Assembly: GCA_016218705.1 (NCBI GenBank)
Contig: JACRDC010000066.1
Coordinates: 1-50,205, forward strand
Length of the DNA stretch: 50,205 nucleotides
Direction of reading: 5' to 3'
Origin: Desulfarculus sp.
Lineage (GTDB): Bacteria > Desulfobacterota > Desulfarculia > Desulfarculales > Desulfarculaceae
In this document: positions 44,687-48,925 of the stretch, piece after piece
Numbering within the stretch: position 1 is the first letter of the stretch
How the letters are laid out: each line of letters starts with the position of its first letter
The notes under the pieces: generated by a model
The model's input: the letters and a program-made list of their open reading frames with translations, nothing else
Told to the model about the DNA's origin: nothing
Database searches by the model: none
Position numbers and translations under genes: made by a program

Positions 44687-44843
44687 AACAGGTTGTTGAA
44701 AAAGTCCATCCATGGACTTTTTCAACACGAGTTAGCCGAAATGAATTCGGCTAACTCTCCCAAAAAGCTTGGCGCTGAAGCGCCCGCGCTTTTTGGCGGG
44801 CCGTCCATGGCCCGCCAACAGGCTGTTTTCCAACAGCCTGTTA
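44687..44843. repeat. Block of five consecutive hairpins with inverted ends
   Basis: Five palindromes stand end to end: GTTGAAAAAGTCCA / TGGACTTTTTCAAC (44695-44726), GAGTTAGCCGAA / TTCGGCTAACTC (44730-44758), an AAAAAGC..GCGCTTTTT stem (about 44762-44795), GGCGGGCC / GGCCCGCC (44796-44817) and AACAGGCTGTT / AACAGCCTGTT (44818-44842). TAACAGGTTGTTG at the left end is the near-exact inverse of CAACAGCCTGTTA at the right end. The block fills the space between the redox operon's last gene and tRNA-Val. Confidence 0.8.
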
Positions 44844-45272
44844 AAGCACTTGCTCCAATATATCGCCGGCGCTTTTCACGAACTGGGGGCAGAGGCTGGT
44901 GAACAACCCGCGCTCCTGGGCCTGCCGCCGCCCTTCCGGGGTGCCCAGGTCCAGGCCCAAGAGGTCCCGGCAGGCGATGGCGCCGTGGACATCCTGGAAG
45001 CGGCGCAGGAACTGGGCGGCGGCCTCGTAGCAGGCGAAGCGGGGGCCGCGTTCCTCAAGCTGGCGCGGCCCCTGGGCCAGGCCCAGCACCAGGATGGCGC
45101 CGCTCACCGCCCCGCAGGTGAGCCCCCGGCCCAGGCCCATGCCCAGGCCGCGCCCCAGGCGCAAGGCTGTGTCCTCGTCCAGGCCCAGGCCGGGGCCGAA
45201 GGCGGCCAGGATGGCCTGGGAGCAACTATGGCCGGGGCCGAACAGGGCCAGGGCCTGCTCGGTGCGCGTCAT
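44841..45272 (-). CDS. C_GCAxxG_C_C family redox protein
   Basis: 143 aa with the family's cysteine layout: HSCSQAILAAF (first Cys), GMGLGRGLTCGAVSGAILVLGL (second), then FACYEAAA, AIACRDLLGLDLG and SLCPQFVKSAGDIL. Function is unproven; members occur in anaerobes and are sometimes membrane-associated redox proteins. ATG 45272 follows AAGGAGG. It is the last gene of a seven-gene minus-strand operon (55 bp after ccdA), and its stop lies within the rightmost hairpin of the palindrome block. Confidence 0.88.
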   Translation of the reverse strand: MTRTEQALALFGPGHSCSQAILAAFGPGLGLDEDTALRLGRGLGMGLGRGLTCGAVSGAILVLGLAQGPRQLEERGPRFACYEAAAQFLRRFQDVHGAIACRDLLGLDLGTPEGRRQAQERGLFTSLCPQFVKSAGDILEQVL

Positions 45273-45327: not shown

Positions 45328-46032
45328 TCAGGCCTCGATGAAAGGCTTAAACAAGAAGTATATACCCATGACGGCGATGCCCAAGCCCGCCGCCCTGCGG
45401 AACCACCGGGATCCGGCCTGCATGGAGCGGTTGTCCAGTATTCGTTGCACCACCGCCGTGGAGCTGCCGGCCACCGCGATGGGCAGGCAGTGGCCCAGGC
45501 CGAAAAGCAGGATCAGGAGCAGGCCCGTGGCGATCTGCGCCTGGATGGTGATGATGGCCAGGATGGGGGCGATGAAGCCAAAGGTGCAGGAGCCGGAGAG
45601 CACGCCATAGGCCAGGCCCAACAGGAAGGCCCCGCCCAGGCCCTTGACCTTGAGCCGGGCCATCAGGCCGCCGGACAAAAAGGACTTGGCCAGCCCCAAC
45701 ATGTCCAGGGCCACCCAGATCAGCACCGCGCCCACCAGGATGGTCCAGTAAGGCCCCACGTCGCCCAGCATGCGCCCCAGCAGCGAGGAGATGACGCCCA
45801 CCGCGCCGATGGTCAAAAACAGGCCCGAGGTGAAGGCCAGGGCGTAGTGCGCGCCGTGGCGGGGACCCAGGCCCTGCTCCTGGCCGGCCACGTAGCCAAC
45901 CATCAGGGGGATGGCGGCCAGGTGGCAGGGGCTGAAGAGCACGCTGACCATGCCCCACAAGAAGCAGCCCAGGGCGGCGAACGCGCTGCCGCCGGTCATC
46001 CAGGCGTTGAGGGTGAGGAAAACCTGGTCCAT
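45328..46032 (-). CDS. CcdA/DsbD-type transmembrane thiol-disulfide electron carrier
   Basis: 234 aa with six to seven membrane spans and the paired-cysteine motifs FSPCHLAAIPLMVGYVAG and LSGSCTFGFIAPILAI. CcdA proteins carry electrons from cytoplasmic thioredoxin across the inner membrane to periplasmic acceptors for cytochrome c maturation and thiol reduction. ATG 46032 has GGAG 6 nt upstream. A TTG at 46044 has no ribosome site. It is followed by the C_GCAxxG gene and preceded by a signal-bearing thioredoxin that is its likely partner. Confidence 0.9.
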   Translation of the reverse strand: MDQVFLTLNAWMTGGSAFAALGCFLWGMVSVLFSPCHLAAIPLMVGYVAGQEQGLGPRHGAHYALAFTSGLFLTIGAVGVISSLLGRMLGDVGPYWTILVGAVLIWVALDMLGLAKSFLSGGLMARLKVKGLGGAFLLGLAYGVLSGSCTFGFIAPILAIITIQAQIATGLLLILLFGLGHCLPIAVAGSSTAVVQRILDNRSMQAGSRWFRRAAGLGIAVMGIYFLFKPFIEA

Positions 46033-46081
46033 GCCGGGCTCCAACTAGGCTGGTGGTAGGTTAGGCAATGGGGAGCCGGGC

Positions 46082-46480
46082 CTATTCGGCGCAGAGCCGG
46101 TTGAGGATCACGACCATGGCCGGCTTGTCCATGAAGCCCAGGTGGCGGTAGACCTCCTTGCCCCGGCGGTCGTAAAAGACCTGGGAGGGTATGCCCTTGA
46201 CCCGGAAGCGGTCCACGGCCTGCTTGTCCAGGCGCACGTCCACGAAGTGCACCTCCGCCTTGCCCTGGTATTCCCGCTTAAGCTCCTCCAGCAGGGGGGC
46301 CATCATCTTGCAGGGTATGCAGGAGGCGGCGCCCACGTCCACCAGGGTGACCATGCCCTTGACCGGCAGGTCGGCCGAGGTCGAGGCCTGCTCCCCGGCC
46401 AGGGCCGGGCCGGGGTGCCAGCCCAGGGCCGCCAGGGCCAGCAAGAGGGCGGCGAAGGCGTTCTTTAGGTTGTTGCTCAC
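46082..46480 (-). CDS. Periplasmic thioredoxin
   Basis: 132 aa with a signal peptide (NAFAALLLALAALGWHPGPALA), then a thioredoxin fold with active site CIPC at 54-57 (VGAASCIPCKMMAPLLEELKREY), KAEVHFVDVRLDKQAVDRF and cis-proline GIPSQVFYDRRGKEV. GTG 46480 follows AGGAA. It probably takes electrons from the CcdA protein encoded 49 bp downstream. Confidence 0.9.
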   Translation of the reverse strand: MSNNLKNAFAALLLALAALGWHPGPALAGEQASTSADLPVKGMVTLVDVGAASCIPCKMMAPLLEELKREYQGKAEVHFVDVRLDKQAVDRFRVKGIPSQVFYDRRGKEVYRHLGFMDKPAMVVILNRLCAE

Positions 46481-46513: not shown

Positions 46514-47035
46514 CTATTCGGGGAAGAAGCGTGCCAGGTAGCCCTCCAACGCCGTGGCCTTTTCCGGCTCCAGCTCGGGGCAGCCGGCGGCCCCCTTGCC
46601 CCCCTCGGCGGCCTGGGCCGCGAAGACCATGCAGGTGGGCTGGCCGCATTTCTTGCAGTTGCTGCGCGGCAGGAGCTTGAGAATCTCCAGGAGCTGGGGC
46701 CGGGGCAGGCCCTGGAAACATGGCTCCAGGCTGTCCCGGTCCCGCCAGGCCTGATTGATCTCGCGCATGAGCCAGGCCAATATGCGGTCGGCCTCCTCCT
46801 CGTCCTTGAGGGCGTTGACCGCGATCAGCCGGGGGTGCACGGTGATGAGCTTGCCATGCACCCGTAGGGTGAGGCTGGGCGGGTCGCCGCTGTATTCGAA
46901 GCCGCCCAACGCGGCGTTGAGATAGGGCAGGACCTCGCCCACGTCCTGGTCCAGGTGGGCGTGGCAATGCAGGGAGGTGAAGCTGGGGTTGCACTCCGGC
47001 CGGAACAGCTCCTTGCGAAAGCCGGTCAGCAGCAT
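46514..47035 (-). CDS. 4Fe-4S-domain protein
   Basis: 173 aa. The N-terminal ~110 residues are soluble with no clear match (FEYSGDPPSLTLRVHGKLITVHPR and a later ILAWLMREINQAW). The C-terminus has a four-cysteine cluster motif NCKKCGQPTCMVFAAQAAEGG then GCPEL (C-x2-C-x4-C-x16-C), like the FeS domain of corrinoid proteins. ATG 47035 lies 10 bp after the extended stop of the [2Fe-2S] selenoprotein gene, with GGAGG at 47045-47041. Its role is presumably electron transfer within the operon. Confidence 0.85.
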   Translation of the reverse strand: MLLTGFRKELFRPECNPSFTSLHCHAHLDQDVGEVLPYLNAALGGFEYSGDPPSLTLRVHGKLITVHPRLIAVNALKDEEEADRILAWLMREINQAWRDRDSLEPCFQGLPRPQLLEILKLLPRSNCKKCGQPTCMVFAAQAAEGGKGAAGCPELEPEKATALEGYLARFFPE

Positions 47036-47045
47036 GGGAGCCTCC

Positions 47046-47318
47046 TTAGTATATTAAGAAGCCCAGGCCCTGTCCTGGCGCGTCCTCCTGACCCAGGAGG
47101 AGCTTGATCTCTGGCGAACATCAGCGCCGGCGTGGGCTCAACTCCCCGCACCGGGCCACAGTGCAGGCCCCGGTGGCGGCCTTGATCTCGGCCAGCGAGC
47201 GCGCTCCCTTGCTCACGGCCTCCATGATCTGCCCCTTGGTCACTCCGGAGCAGTGGCAGACCACGGCCTCGGGGGGGGCGGTTAGCATCTCCGGACCGCT
47301 ATAGACCTTCTCCTCCAT
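47046..47318 (-). CDS. BFD-like [2Fe-2S] protein with in-frame UGA, probable selenoprotein
   Basis: ATG 47318 opens a BFD-like domain VVCHCSGVTKGQIMEAVSKG, then AATGACTVARCGELSPRR. At codon 66 is TGA (47123-47121). Reading through gives UCSPEIKLLLGQE and ends at TAA (47048-47046), for 90 aa. Close relatives, as I recall them, end their domain with RCKELNPxGRCCSxDI-type sequence, so the UGA would replace the first Cys of that CC pair. A perfect 7-bp hairpin with G-rich loop follows at SECIS distance. Readthrough also shrinks the gap to the next gene from 85 to 10 bp, and the next gene's GGAGG abuts the TAA. Function: electron transfer, perhaps to the permease or thiol system. Confidence 0.85.
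47084..47123 (-). promoter_or_regulatory. Bacterial SECIS element of the BFD-like gene
   Basis: Twenty nt after the UGA (47123-47121) the minus strand forms CCTCCTG-GGT-CAGGAGG (47100-47084), a perfect 7-bp stem with loop GGT, or 6 bp around GGGTC. The loop lies 26-27 nt after the UGA and starts with G, as in bacterial SECIS elements. The geometry matches that of the HesB-like gene. Confidence 0.8.
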
Positions 47319-47334: not shown

Positions 47335-48420
47335 CTACAATATGGCGTTGAACAGATAGCCCACCAGGAGGATGCCCAGGCCCACCACGCCGGCGAAGGT
47401 GGCGATCAGGGGCGGCTTGAGCACCTTGCGCAGGATGACCATCTCGGGGAAGGACAGGGCGATCACCGACATCATGAAGGCCAGGGCCGTGCCCAGGGCC
47501 GCGCCCTTGGCCATCAGCGCCTGCACCACGGGGATGATGCCGGCGGCGTTGGCGTACATGGGGATGCCGATGAGCACCGCCAAGGGCACCGACCACCAGG
47601 CTTGTCCGCCCATGATCGTGGCCAGCAGGTCCTGGGGGGCATAGCCGTGGATGAAAGAGCCCACGGCCACGCCGGCCAACACCCATAGCCAGACCCGTCC
47701 CACGATCTCGCGCACCGCGTTCAACCCGTAGTGCACCCGGTCCGCCGGGGTCAGGCGCTCCTCCAGCACCGCTGAGGGCATGGCCTGCATCTGGCGCACC
47801 CAGTCCTCCAGGTGGCGCTCCATGTTCAGCCGGCCGATGACCCAGCCGGCCACCATGGCCACCATCAGGCCGGTGGCCATGTAGATGGCCGCCACCTTCC
47901 AGCCGAAGAGCCCCCACAACAGCACCACCGCCACCTCGTTGACCATGGGCGCGCTGATGAGAAAGGAGAAGGTGACGCCGAGCGGCACGCCGGCGCTGAC
48001 AAAGCCGATGAACAGGGGCACCGCCGAGCAGGAGCAGAAGGGCGTGACGATGCCCAGGCCGGCGGCCATCACGTTGCCCACGGCCTCGTGGCGGCCGGCC
48101 AAGAGGGCGCGGGTCTTCTCGGGGCTGAAGAAGGAGCGCACCAGGCCCACGCCAAAGACCACCACCACCAAGAGCATCAGCACCTTGGGGGCGTCGTAGA
48201 GGAAATAGGCCAGGGACTCGGCCAGGTGCCCGCCGCGCTCAAGCCCCAGCACGTCATGGGTGAGGGCCTGGGACAGGGGCGCCAGGTTCTGGTACAGGAA
48301 CCACCAGGCCAGGAGCAGGGGCAGGCCCCAGGCCAGGTAGCGCCAGAGCCCCGGCTGGCCGGCGCCCATGGCCGGGCTACCGCAGGCGCAGCCGGGCTGG
48401 TCGGTGGGGTTGGTGGACAT
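47335..48420 (-). CDS. DUF318 (ArsP_1-type) permease
   Basis: 361 aa with about eight membrane helices. Its signature TPFCSCSAVPLFIGFVSAGVPLG, then FLISAPMVNEVAVVLLWG, and in the second half GIPMYANAAGIIPVVQAL and SFPEMVILRKVL, places it in the PF03773 permease family. Members are linked to arsenic (including organoarsenical), copper or zinc export and often sit with thioredoxin-like genes. An N-terminal Cys cluster GCACGSPAMG precedes the first helix. ATG 48420 follows AAGGAGG. It is second in the operon, 10 bp after the thioredoxin-like gene and 16 bp before the BFD-like selenoprotein. Confidence 0.9.
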   Translation of the reverse strand: MSTNPTDQPGCACGSPAMGAGQPGLWRYLAWGLPLLLAWWFLYQNLAPLSQALTHDVLGLERGGHLAESLAYFLYDAPKVLMLLVVVVFGVGLVRSFFSPEKTRALLAGRHEAVGNVMAAGLGIVTPFCSCSAVPLFIGFVSAGVPLGVTFSFLISAPMVNEVAVVLLWGLFGWKVAAIYMATGLMVAMVAGWVIGRLNMERHLEDWVRQMQAMPSAVLEERLTPADRVHYGLNAVREIVGRVWLWVLAGVAVGSFIHGYAPQDLLATIMGGQAWWSVPLAVLIGIPMYANAAGIIPVVQALMAKGAALGTALAFMMSVIALSFPEMVILRKVLKPPLIATFAGVVGLGILLVGYLFNAIL

Positions 48421-48430
48421 GGGGTCCTCC

Positions 48431-48925
48431 TTAGCTCCGGCCGGCGGCCGAGAGCCAGTCCTTGATCTGCCGGGGGCTGGGCACGCTGCCCACGCAGACC
48501 ACCTTGCCGTTTATCACCAGGGCCGGGGTGCCCATCACCCCGAAGCGGGCGATCTCCATCATGTCGCGCACGTGCTCCAGATCGGCGGCCAGATTCATCT
48601 CGTTCAGCACCTTCATGACGCTGGCCGTCAGCGACTCGCAGCGGCTGCACCCCGGCCCCAACACCTTGATGGCCAGGCCCCCGGCATTGTCCTCCTCCAC
48701 GGGCAGGCCCCGCTGGCGGCGGTACTCGCGCCCCAGGGCCAGGGCGTACTCCCGCCGGGCCGAGGCGGGTATGTAGTTGCTGGCCGACAGACGCCCCAAC
48801 AGTTCCTGCCCCACGGCCAGAGGGTCCTGCTGGTCCCAGGATGTGTCCAGGGCCTCCAGGGCCTGGTCCAGGCCGATGACGCCCACCTTCTGGCCACCTA
48901 TGGTGATGATGCGGCTGTCGCCCAT
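48431..48925 (-). CDS. Thioredoxin-like small redox-active disulfide protein with an N-terminal extension
   Basis: 164 aa. The C-terminal ~80 residues are the thioredoxin_3/'redox-active disulfide protein 2' fold: LAIKVLGPGCSRCESLTASVMKV with CSRC at 93-96, and GVMGTPALVINGKVVCVGSVPS with its cis-proline. The first ~80 residues are an extra helical domain (GGQKVGVIGLDQALEALDTS...) not usual for the family. ATG 48925 follows GGGGAGG. It is the first gene of the seven-gene operon and precedes the permease, the classic pairing of this small thioredoxin with DUF318 permeases. Confidence 0.9.
   Translation of the reverse strand: MGDSRIITIGGQKVGVIGLDQALEALDTSWDQQDPLAVGQELLGRLSASNYIPASARREYALALGREYRRQRGLPVEEDNAGGLAIKVLGPGCSRCESLTASVMKVLNEMNLAADLEHVRDMMEIARFGVMGTPALVINGKVVCVGSVPSPRQIKDWLSAAGRS

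Follow-up and report, generated by a model that had tools for sequence, protein, structure and literature searches.

Does the in-frame UGA codon of a small BFD-like gene in Desulfarculus sp. end the protein, or is it read as selenocysteine (Sec)? The gene lies on the reverse strand of the window, by which we mean the whole 50,205-nucleotide (nt) stretch of contig JACRDC010000066.1 analyzed here. Under the standard code, without readthrough, the open reading frame (ORF) stops at 65 amino acids (aa), and standard annotation would cut the selenoprotein there. When the TGA is instead translated as Sec, the frame comprises 90 codons (47318 to 47046, reverse strand), from an ATG at 47318 to a TAA at 47048 to 47046, and reads MEEKVYSGPEMLTAPPEAVVCHCSGVTKGQIMEAVSKGARSLAEIKAATGACTVARCGELSPRRR-U-CSPEIKLLLGQEDAPGQGLGFLIY, followed by the stop. 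The two features at issue are as follows.

47046 to 47318, reverse strand: predicted selenoprotein gene, encoding a 90-aa stand-alone [2Fe-2S] protein resembling BFD and the N-terminal domain of CopZ (translation, PF04324, 24 homologous loci)
47121 to 47123, reverse strand: in-frame UGA (predicted Sec66), followed by Cys67 (UGA in 24 loci; Cys in L082, L017, L019, and L020)

The first-pass annotation had extended the frame past the TGA at 47123 to the TAA at 47046, assigned the product to the BFD-like domain, and noted the GGAGG of the next gene directly after the TAA. Each of these points was borne out. Translation gave the 90 codons described above, the Pfam model Fer2_BFD (PF04324) matched the product with 39.4 bits (gathering cutoff, 26), and GGAGG directly follows the TAA, with the next ATG, that of an FeS-domain gene, at 47035. 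On its other side, the selenoprotein gene begins 16 nt past an ArsP_1 permease gene.

The same UGA, frame, and hairpin (described below) were found at 24 nonredundant homologous loci, the total after duplicates were removed, which represent five or more families of the phylum. Among 20 genomes of the family, nine loci had one in-frame TGA each, at the codon equivalent to that of the window, and further loci had no stop. When 395 genomes of the phylum were searched with a profile, 15 proved to contain relatives, and in ten of these the TGA was present. A TGA-specific DNA pattern run against 84,980 named genomes had 27 hits, 20 of them real relatives and 7 due to chance; the record names of the relatives include Desulfarculaceae, Desulfarculus, Desulfatibacillum, Desulforhabdus, Desulfobacteraceae, Desulfovibrio, Trichlorobacter, and Geobacter, among others. 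No relatives were found in plasmids or viral contigs. A single-protein scan of genome contigs with peptide patterns gave no match, because those patterns took codon 66 to be Cys.

At all 24 loci Cys directly follows the UGA and is itself followed by a conserved tail, mostly CSxEIxxLLGQ. The translated loci of the family share the motif C-x-E-L-S-P-R-x-R-U-C-S-x-E-I, with the tail running to LLGQ. Cys takes the place of Sec in the homologs L082, L017, L019, and L020; the closest homolog lacking the UGA, L082, reads ...NPRGRCCSVEI (GRCC), that is, ...TGACIKGDCKNTNPRGRCCSVEIVKFL. The proposal that the UGA occupies the position of a conserved Cys thus agrees with the homologs, which have UGA or Cys at codon 66 and a conserved tail beyond it.

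Two further findings concern related sequences. In a congeneric genome, the frame of the copy at L016:1501-1668 (the same gene as in L053) is interrupted 5' of the UGA, where a run of G close to the CxC motif seems to contain one G too many, which reflects either an assembly error or decay. Separately, Cys-only BFD-like paralogs with an N-terminal CGCGCG-rich stretch (L017, L023, L024, L030, and L032) directly precede a gene for a CooC-like ATPase in several genomes of the family and form a separate conserved pair. BFD paralogs such as L017, L023, and L030, whose ATPase neighbor was identified by sequence, belong to a different group from the selenoprotein.

Downstream of the UGA lies a potential Sec insertion element.

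47083 to 47101, reverse strand: bacterial SECIS-like hairpin with an 8-bp stem and a GGT loop (published bSECIS model, covariation)

The stem strands are TCCTCCTG and CAGGAGGA (47101 to 47083), and the GGT loop occupies 47093 to 47091. A stem-loop had been proposed at 47100 to 47084; its presence held, while its extent needed correction, the stem being slightly longer. The published bSECIS model specifies a loop of 3 to 9 nt with G in the first two loop positions, a stem of 4 to 16 bp, a distance of 16 to 37 nt from the UGA, and a minimum free energy of no more than −7.5 kcal/mol (PMC13188914). The window hairpin, 27 nt after the UGA and with −11.8 kcal/mol, agrees with the model on every point. 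No Rfam match was found at the hairpin.

A hairpin with GG in the loop was present in 24 of 24 loci. In 21 loci the hairpin follows the UGA by 26 to 27 nt. The three Geobacter-group loci have a spacing of 19 nt and form a different stem, of comparable geometry, around AGGT. Fifteen of the 24 hairpins satisfied the energy limit (≤ −7.5 kcal/mol) against 1.7 expected under synonymous recoding, a sample that is not independent because the loci are related; the remaining nine missed the energy limit only and kept the position and loop. Across 21 loci, 88.7% of cells were paired versus 79.4% in shuffles, and the covariation score was 0.246 versus 0.123 in shuffles (0/500). When the partner strands were slid, the paired fraction fell to 54 to 65%, and one slid version (−1) gave a covariation of 0.229, close to the observed value. 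These results sustain the SECIS assignment of the first-pass annotation. As a control, a loose hairpin test was applied to the 49 TGA-TGY contexts of the window; two frames of low complexity likewise passed it, and the hairpin by itself was accordingly rejected as sufficient proof. The hairpin evidence becomes decisive because 24 nonredundant loci conserve the UGA, the frame, and the hairpin together.

The same genome encodes SelA (610 bits), SelB (368 bits), SelD (364 bits), and a tRNA-Sec with anticodon TCA, which answers the earlier call for a search for the Sec machinery. The selD gene (L043:1501-2421) has one in-frame TGA of its own, which fits a Sec-containing SelD.

Could the UGA nevertheless be an ordinary stop, leaving a 65-aa BFD-like protein as the product? 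That shorter ORF already holds C21, C23, C52, and C57, which in principle are enough for a cluster. Against this reading, the 24 loci preserve the protein encoded downstream: 3' of the UGA, mean entropy peaks at third codon positions (1.03 versus 0.45 and 0.38), the pattern expected of translated sequence. Homologs have Cys at the place of codon 66, the SECIS-like hairpin is conserved, and the TGA-independent searches (20 genomes of the family and 395 genomes of the phylum) gave TGA or Cys at this place and never TAA or TAG. We therefore regard termination at the UGA as very unlikely. An error of sequencing or assembly that turned a Cys codon (TGC or TGT) into the TGA might be imagined for a draft assembly of 126 contigs; it is refuted by the independent assemblies of many projects and families that carry the identical TGA, and its probability is negligible.

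Coding continuity across the UGA, conservation of the SECIS element, and the presence of the Sec machinery are direct results of computation. Together, the conserved UGA, the Cys homolog, the hairpins, and the machinery make a real selenoprotein gene very likely, and we conclude with near certainty that codon 66 is read as Sec to yield a 90-aa CopZ-N-terminal/BFD-like [2Fe-2S] selenoprotein. None of the contrary findings anticipated by the first-pass annotation (a genome lacking the machinery, homologs lacking the tail, a sequencing error) appeared. The hairpin, starting about 20 nt downstream, would direct Sec insertion through the SelA, SelB, SelD, and tRNA-Sec of the genome.

The earlier hint of novelty needed correction. 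A (2Fe-2S)-binding protein, copper chaperone CopZ family form 1, is listed as a predicted selenoprotein with motif GxUC and domain cd10141 (PMC13188914, Table 1), with reference sequence WP_245779778.1 and a function given as unknown in that 2026 review. Form 2, the Csac_0668 family 2Fe-2S cluster-binding (seleno)protein, has the motif CU (PMC13188914). Both forms had been listed by 2022 (PMC9312934); the 2008 source paper does not mention CopZ in its main text. Form 1, compared by its listed motif only, resembles the window protein in domain type and in having Sec directly before Cys. Its motif is GxUC whereas the window copy reads RRUC, but half of the loci (12 of 24) read GRUC, and form 1 is for this reason most likely the same kind of protein as that encoded at these loci, as far as sequence motifs indicate. 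Form 2 is more distant. Its model, NF045877 (CopZ_Nterm_CU), aligns at residues 19 to 72 of the window protein with 38.3 bits, far below the curated cutoff of 190 bits, and is covered only in its C-terminal part (99 to 153 of 161); moreover, Sec is second in its CU motif and first in the UC motif of the window protein. No NCBIfam model reached its cutoff for the window selenoprotein. What is new here is the small stand-alone form, its distribution, and its recurrent linkage to arsenic genes; the kind itself had most likely been listed before.

HMMER and Foldseek agreed in matching the protein with Bfd and with the N-terminal domain of Archaeoglobus fulgidus CopZ (2hu9), the Foldseek E values being weak (best, 0.078) and the predicted model of moderate confidence (pLDDT, 76.7). 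Bfd, the bacterioferritin-associated ferredoxin (PDB 6e6r and 4e6k), gave the best matches in both searches; the HMMER match spans residues 19 to 60 and stops before the UC motif, and the window has no visible bacterioferritin context. Among solved structures with a CC motif, the CopZ domain is the closest. Counting CopZ residues from the chain positions shown in the alignment, C75, C77, and C109 align with C21, C23, and C57 of the window protein, and C118-C119 align with Sec66-Cys67. The CopZ domain differs in being larger, in having Cys for Sec, and in offering no counterpart of C52. The copper chaperone CopZ carries a fused copper-binding C-terminal domain; translation and Pfam revealed no such domain in the 90-aa window protein. 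Because the alignment places the Sec-Cys pair at C118-C119, a Sec-ligated cluster can be entertained, yet direct ligation of the [2Fe-2S] cluster by Sec66, or by Sec66 with Cys67, seems improbable. We take the cluster ligands of CopZ to be C75, C77, C109, and C119, in which case Cys67 would be a ligand and Sec66 its free neighbor. Were Sec ligation true, it would be a natural selenocysteine-ligated Fe-S cluster in a metalloid detoxification protein.

The arsenic and metal context of the operon, absent from the first-pass annotation, was added by this analysis. In the order of the presumed operon, the neighbors of the selenoprotein gene, which follows the permease gene, are as follows.

48431 to 48925, reverse strand: MTH895/ArsE-family thioredoxin-like protein, first gene of the presumed operon (TIGR00412, over cutoff)
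47335 to 48420, reverse strand: ArsP_1 permease (PF03773; weaker resemblance to SaoE and SO_0444 efflux transporters)
46514 to 47035, reverse strand: protein with a C-terminal 4Cys FeS domain (PF04060), beginning just past the selenoprotein stop
46082 to 46480, reverse strand: thioredoxin-like protein, putatively exported as judged from its N-terminal sequence
45328 to 46044, reverse strand: CcdA/DsbD-type membrane electron transfer protein (PF02683)
44841 to 45272, reverse strand: C_GCAxxG_C_C redox protein, Cys form

Beyond the last of these genes, positions 44691 to 44789 (reverse strand) resemble the TD-2 sRNA with 41 bits, below the Rfam cutoff of 48.7 bits.

Computation likewise established the neighborhood at the other loci. 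In about 16 of the 24, the window included, one or more of four genes lie nearby, namely those for an ArsE-type thioredoxin, an ArsP-like permease, a thioredoxin-type ArsC, and ArsM. At many other loci the selenoprotein gene has a homolog of the ArsE-type thioredoxin close by, and at several it adjoins an ArsP-like permease. The ArsP-like neighbor in Desulforhabdus sp. TSK (L057:3316-3828) aligns in its first and last parts only, its middle seemingly missing. Geobacter-group copies adjoin CDF transporters, and L067 also has a CzcA-type pump. No ars neighbors were detectable at three loci (L061, L062, and L063).

These neighbors argue for metalloid or metal handling. The chemistry, meaning the ligands of the cluster, a redox or metalloid role, and the partners, is our inference. 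The most likely role would be that of a redox or metalloid-handling carrier for detoxification, and a part in arsenic handling specifically is a tentative proposal drawn from the neighborhood. The selenoprotein would act in the cytoplasm as part of the detoxification of metalloids (arsenic). It might serve as an electron donor for partners with a disulfide or selenenylsulfide, for example the ArsE-type thioredoxin and arsenate reductase; alternatively, soft metal(loid)s of the As(III) type may be bound at the Sec-Cys pair beside the cluster before their efflux through the ArsP-like permease. A different function, which would leave Sec decoding unaffected, is general Cu/Zn/Co homeostasis as in CopZ, with the ars linkage opportunistic. 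The closest solved CC-motif structure being that of CopZ, the CDF and CzcA metal pumps beside the Geobacter-group copies, and the three loci lacking ars neighbors speak for it, but the arsenic-related genes near about two-thirds of the loci, the window among them, speak against it, and we consider it possible but rather unlikely.

The predicted selenoprotein is well supported and widely conserved. It extends a group of CopZ/BFD selenoproteins that is listed without a function to a small stand-alone form and links that group with the detoxification of arsenic and metals. Selenium beside an Fe-S cluster in an arsenic operon offers a testable case for Sec retention in anaerobes, the idea to be tested being that anaerobes retain Sec as a soft-metal ligand or as a fast redox residue.
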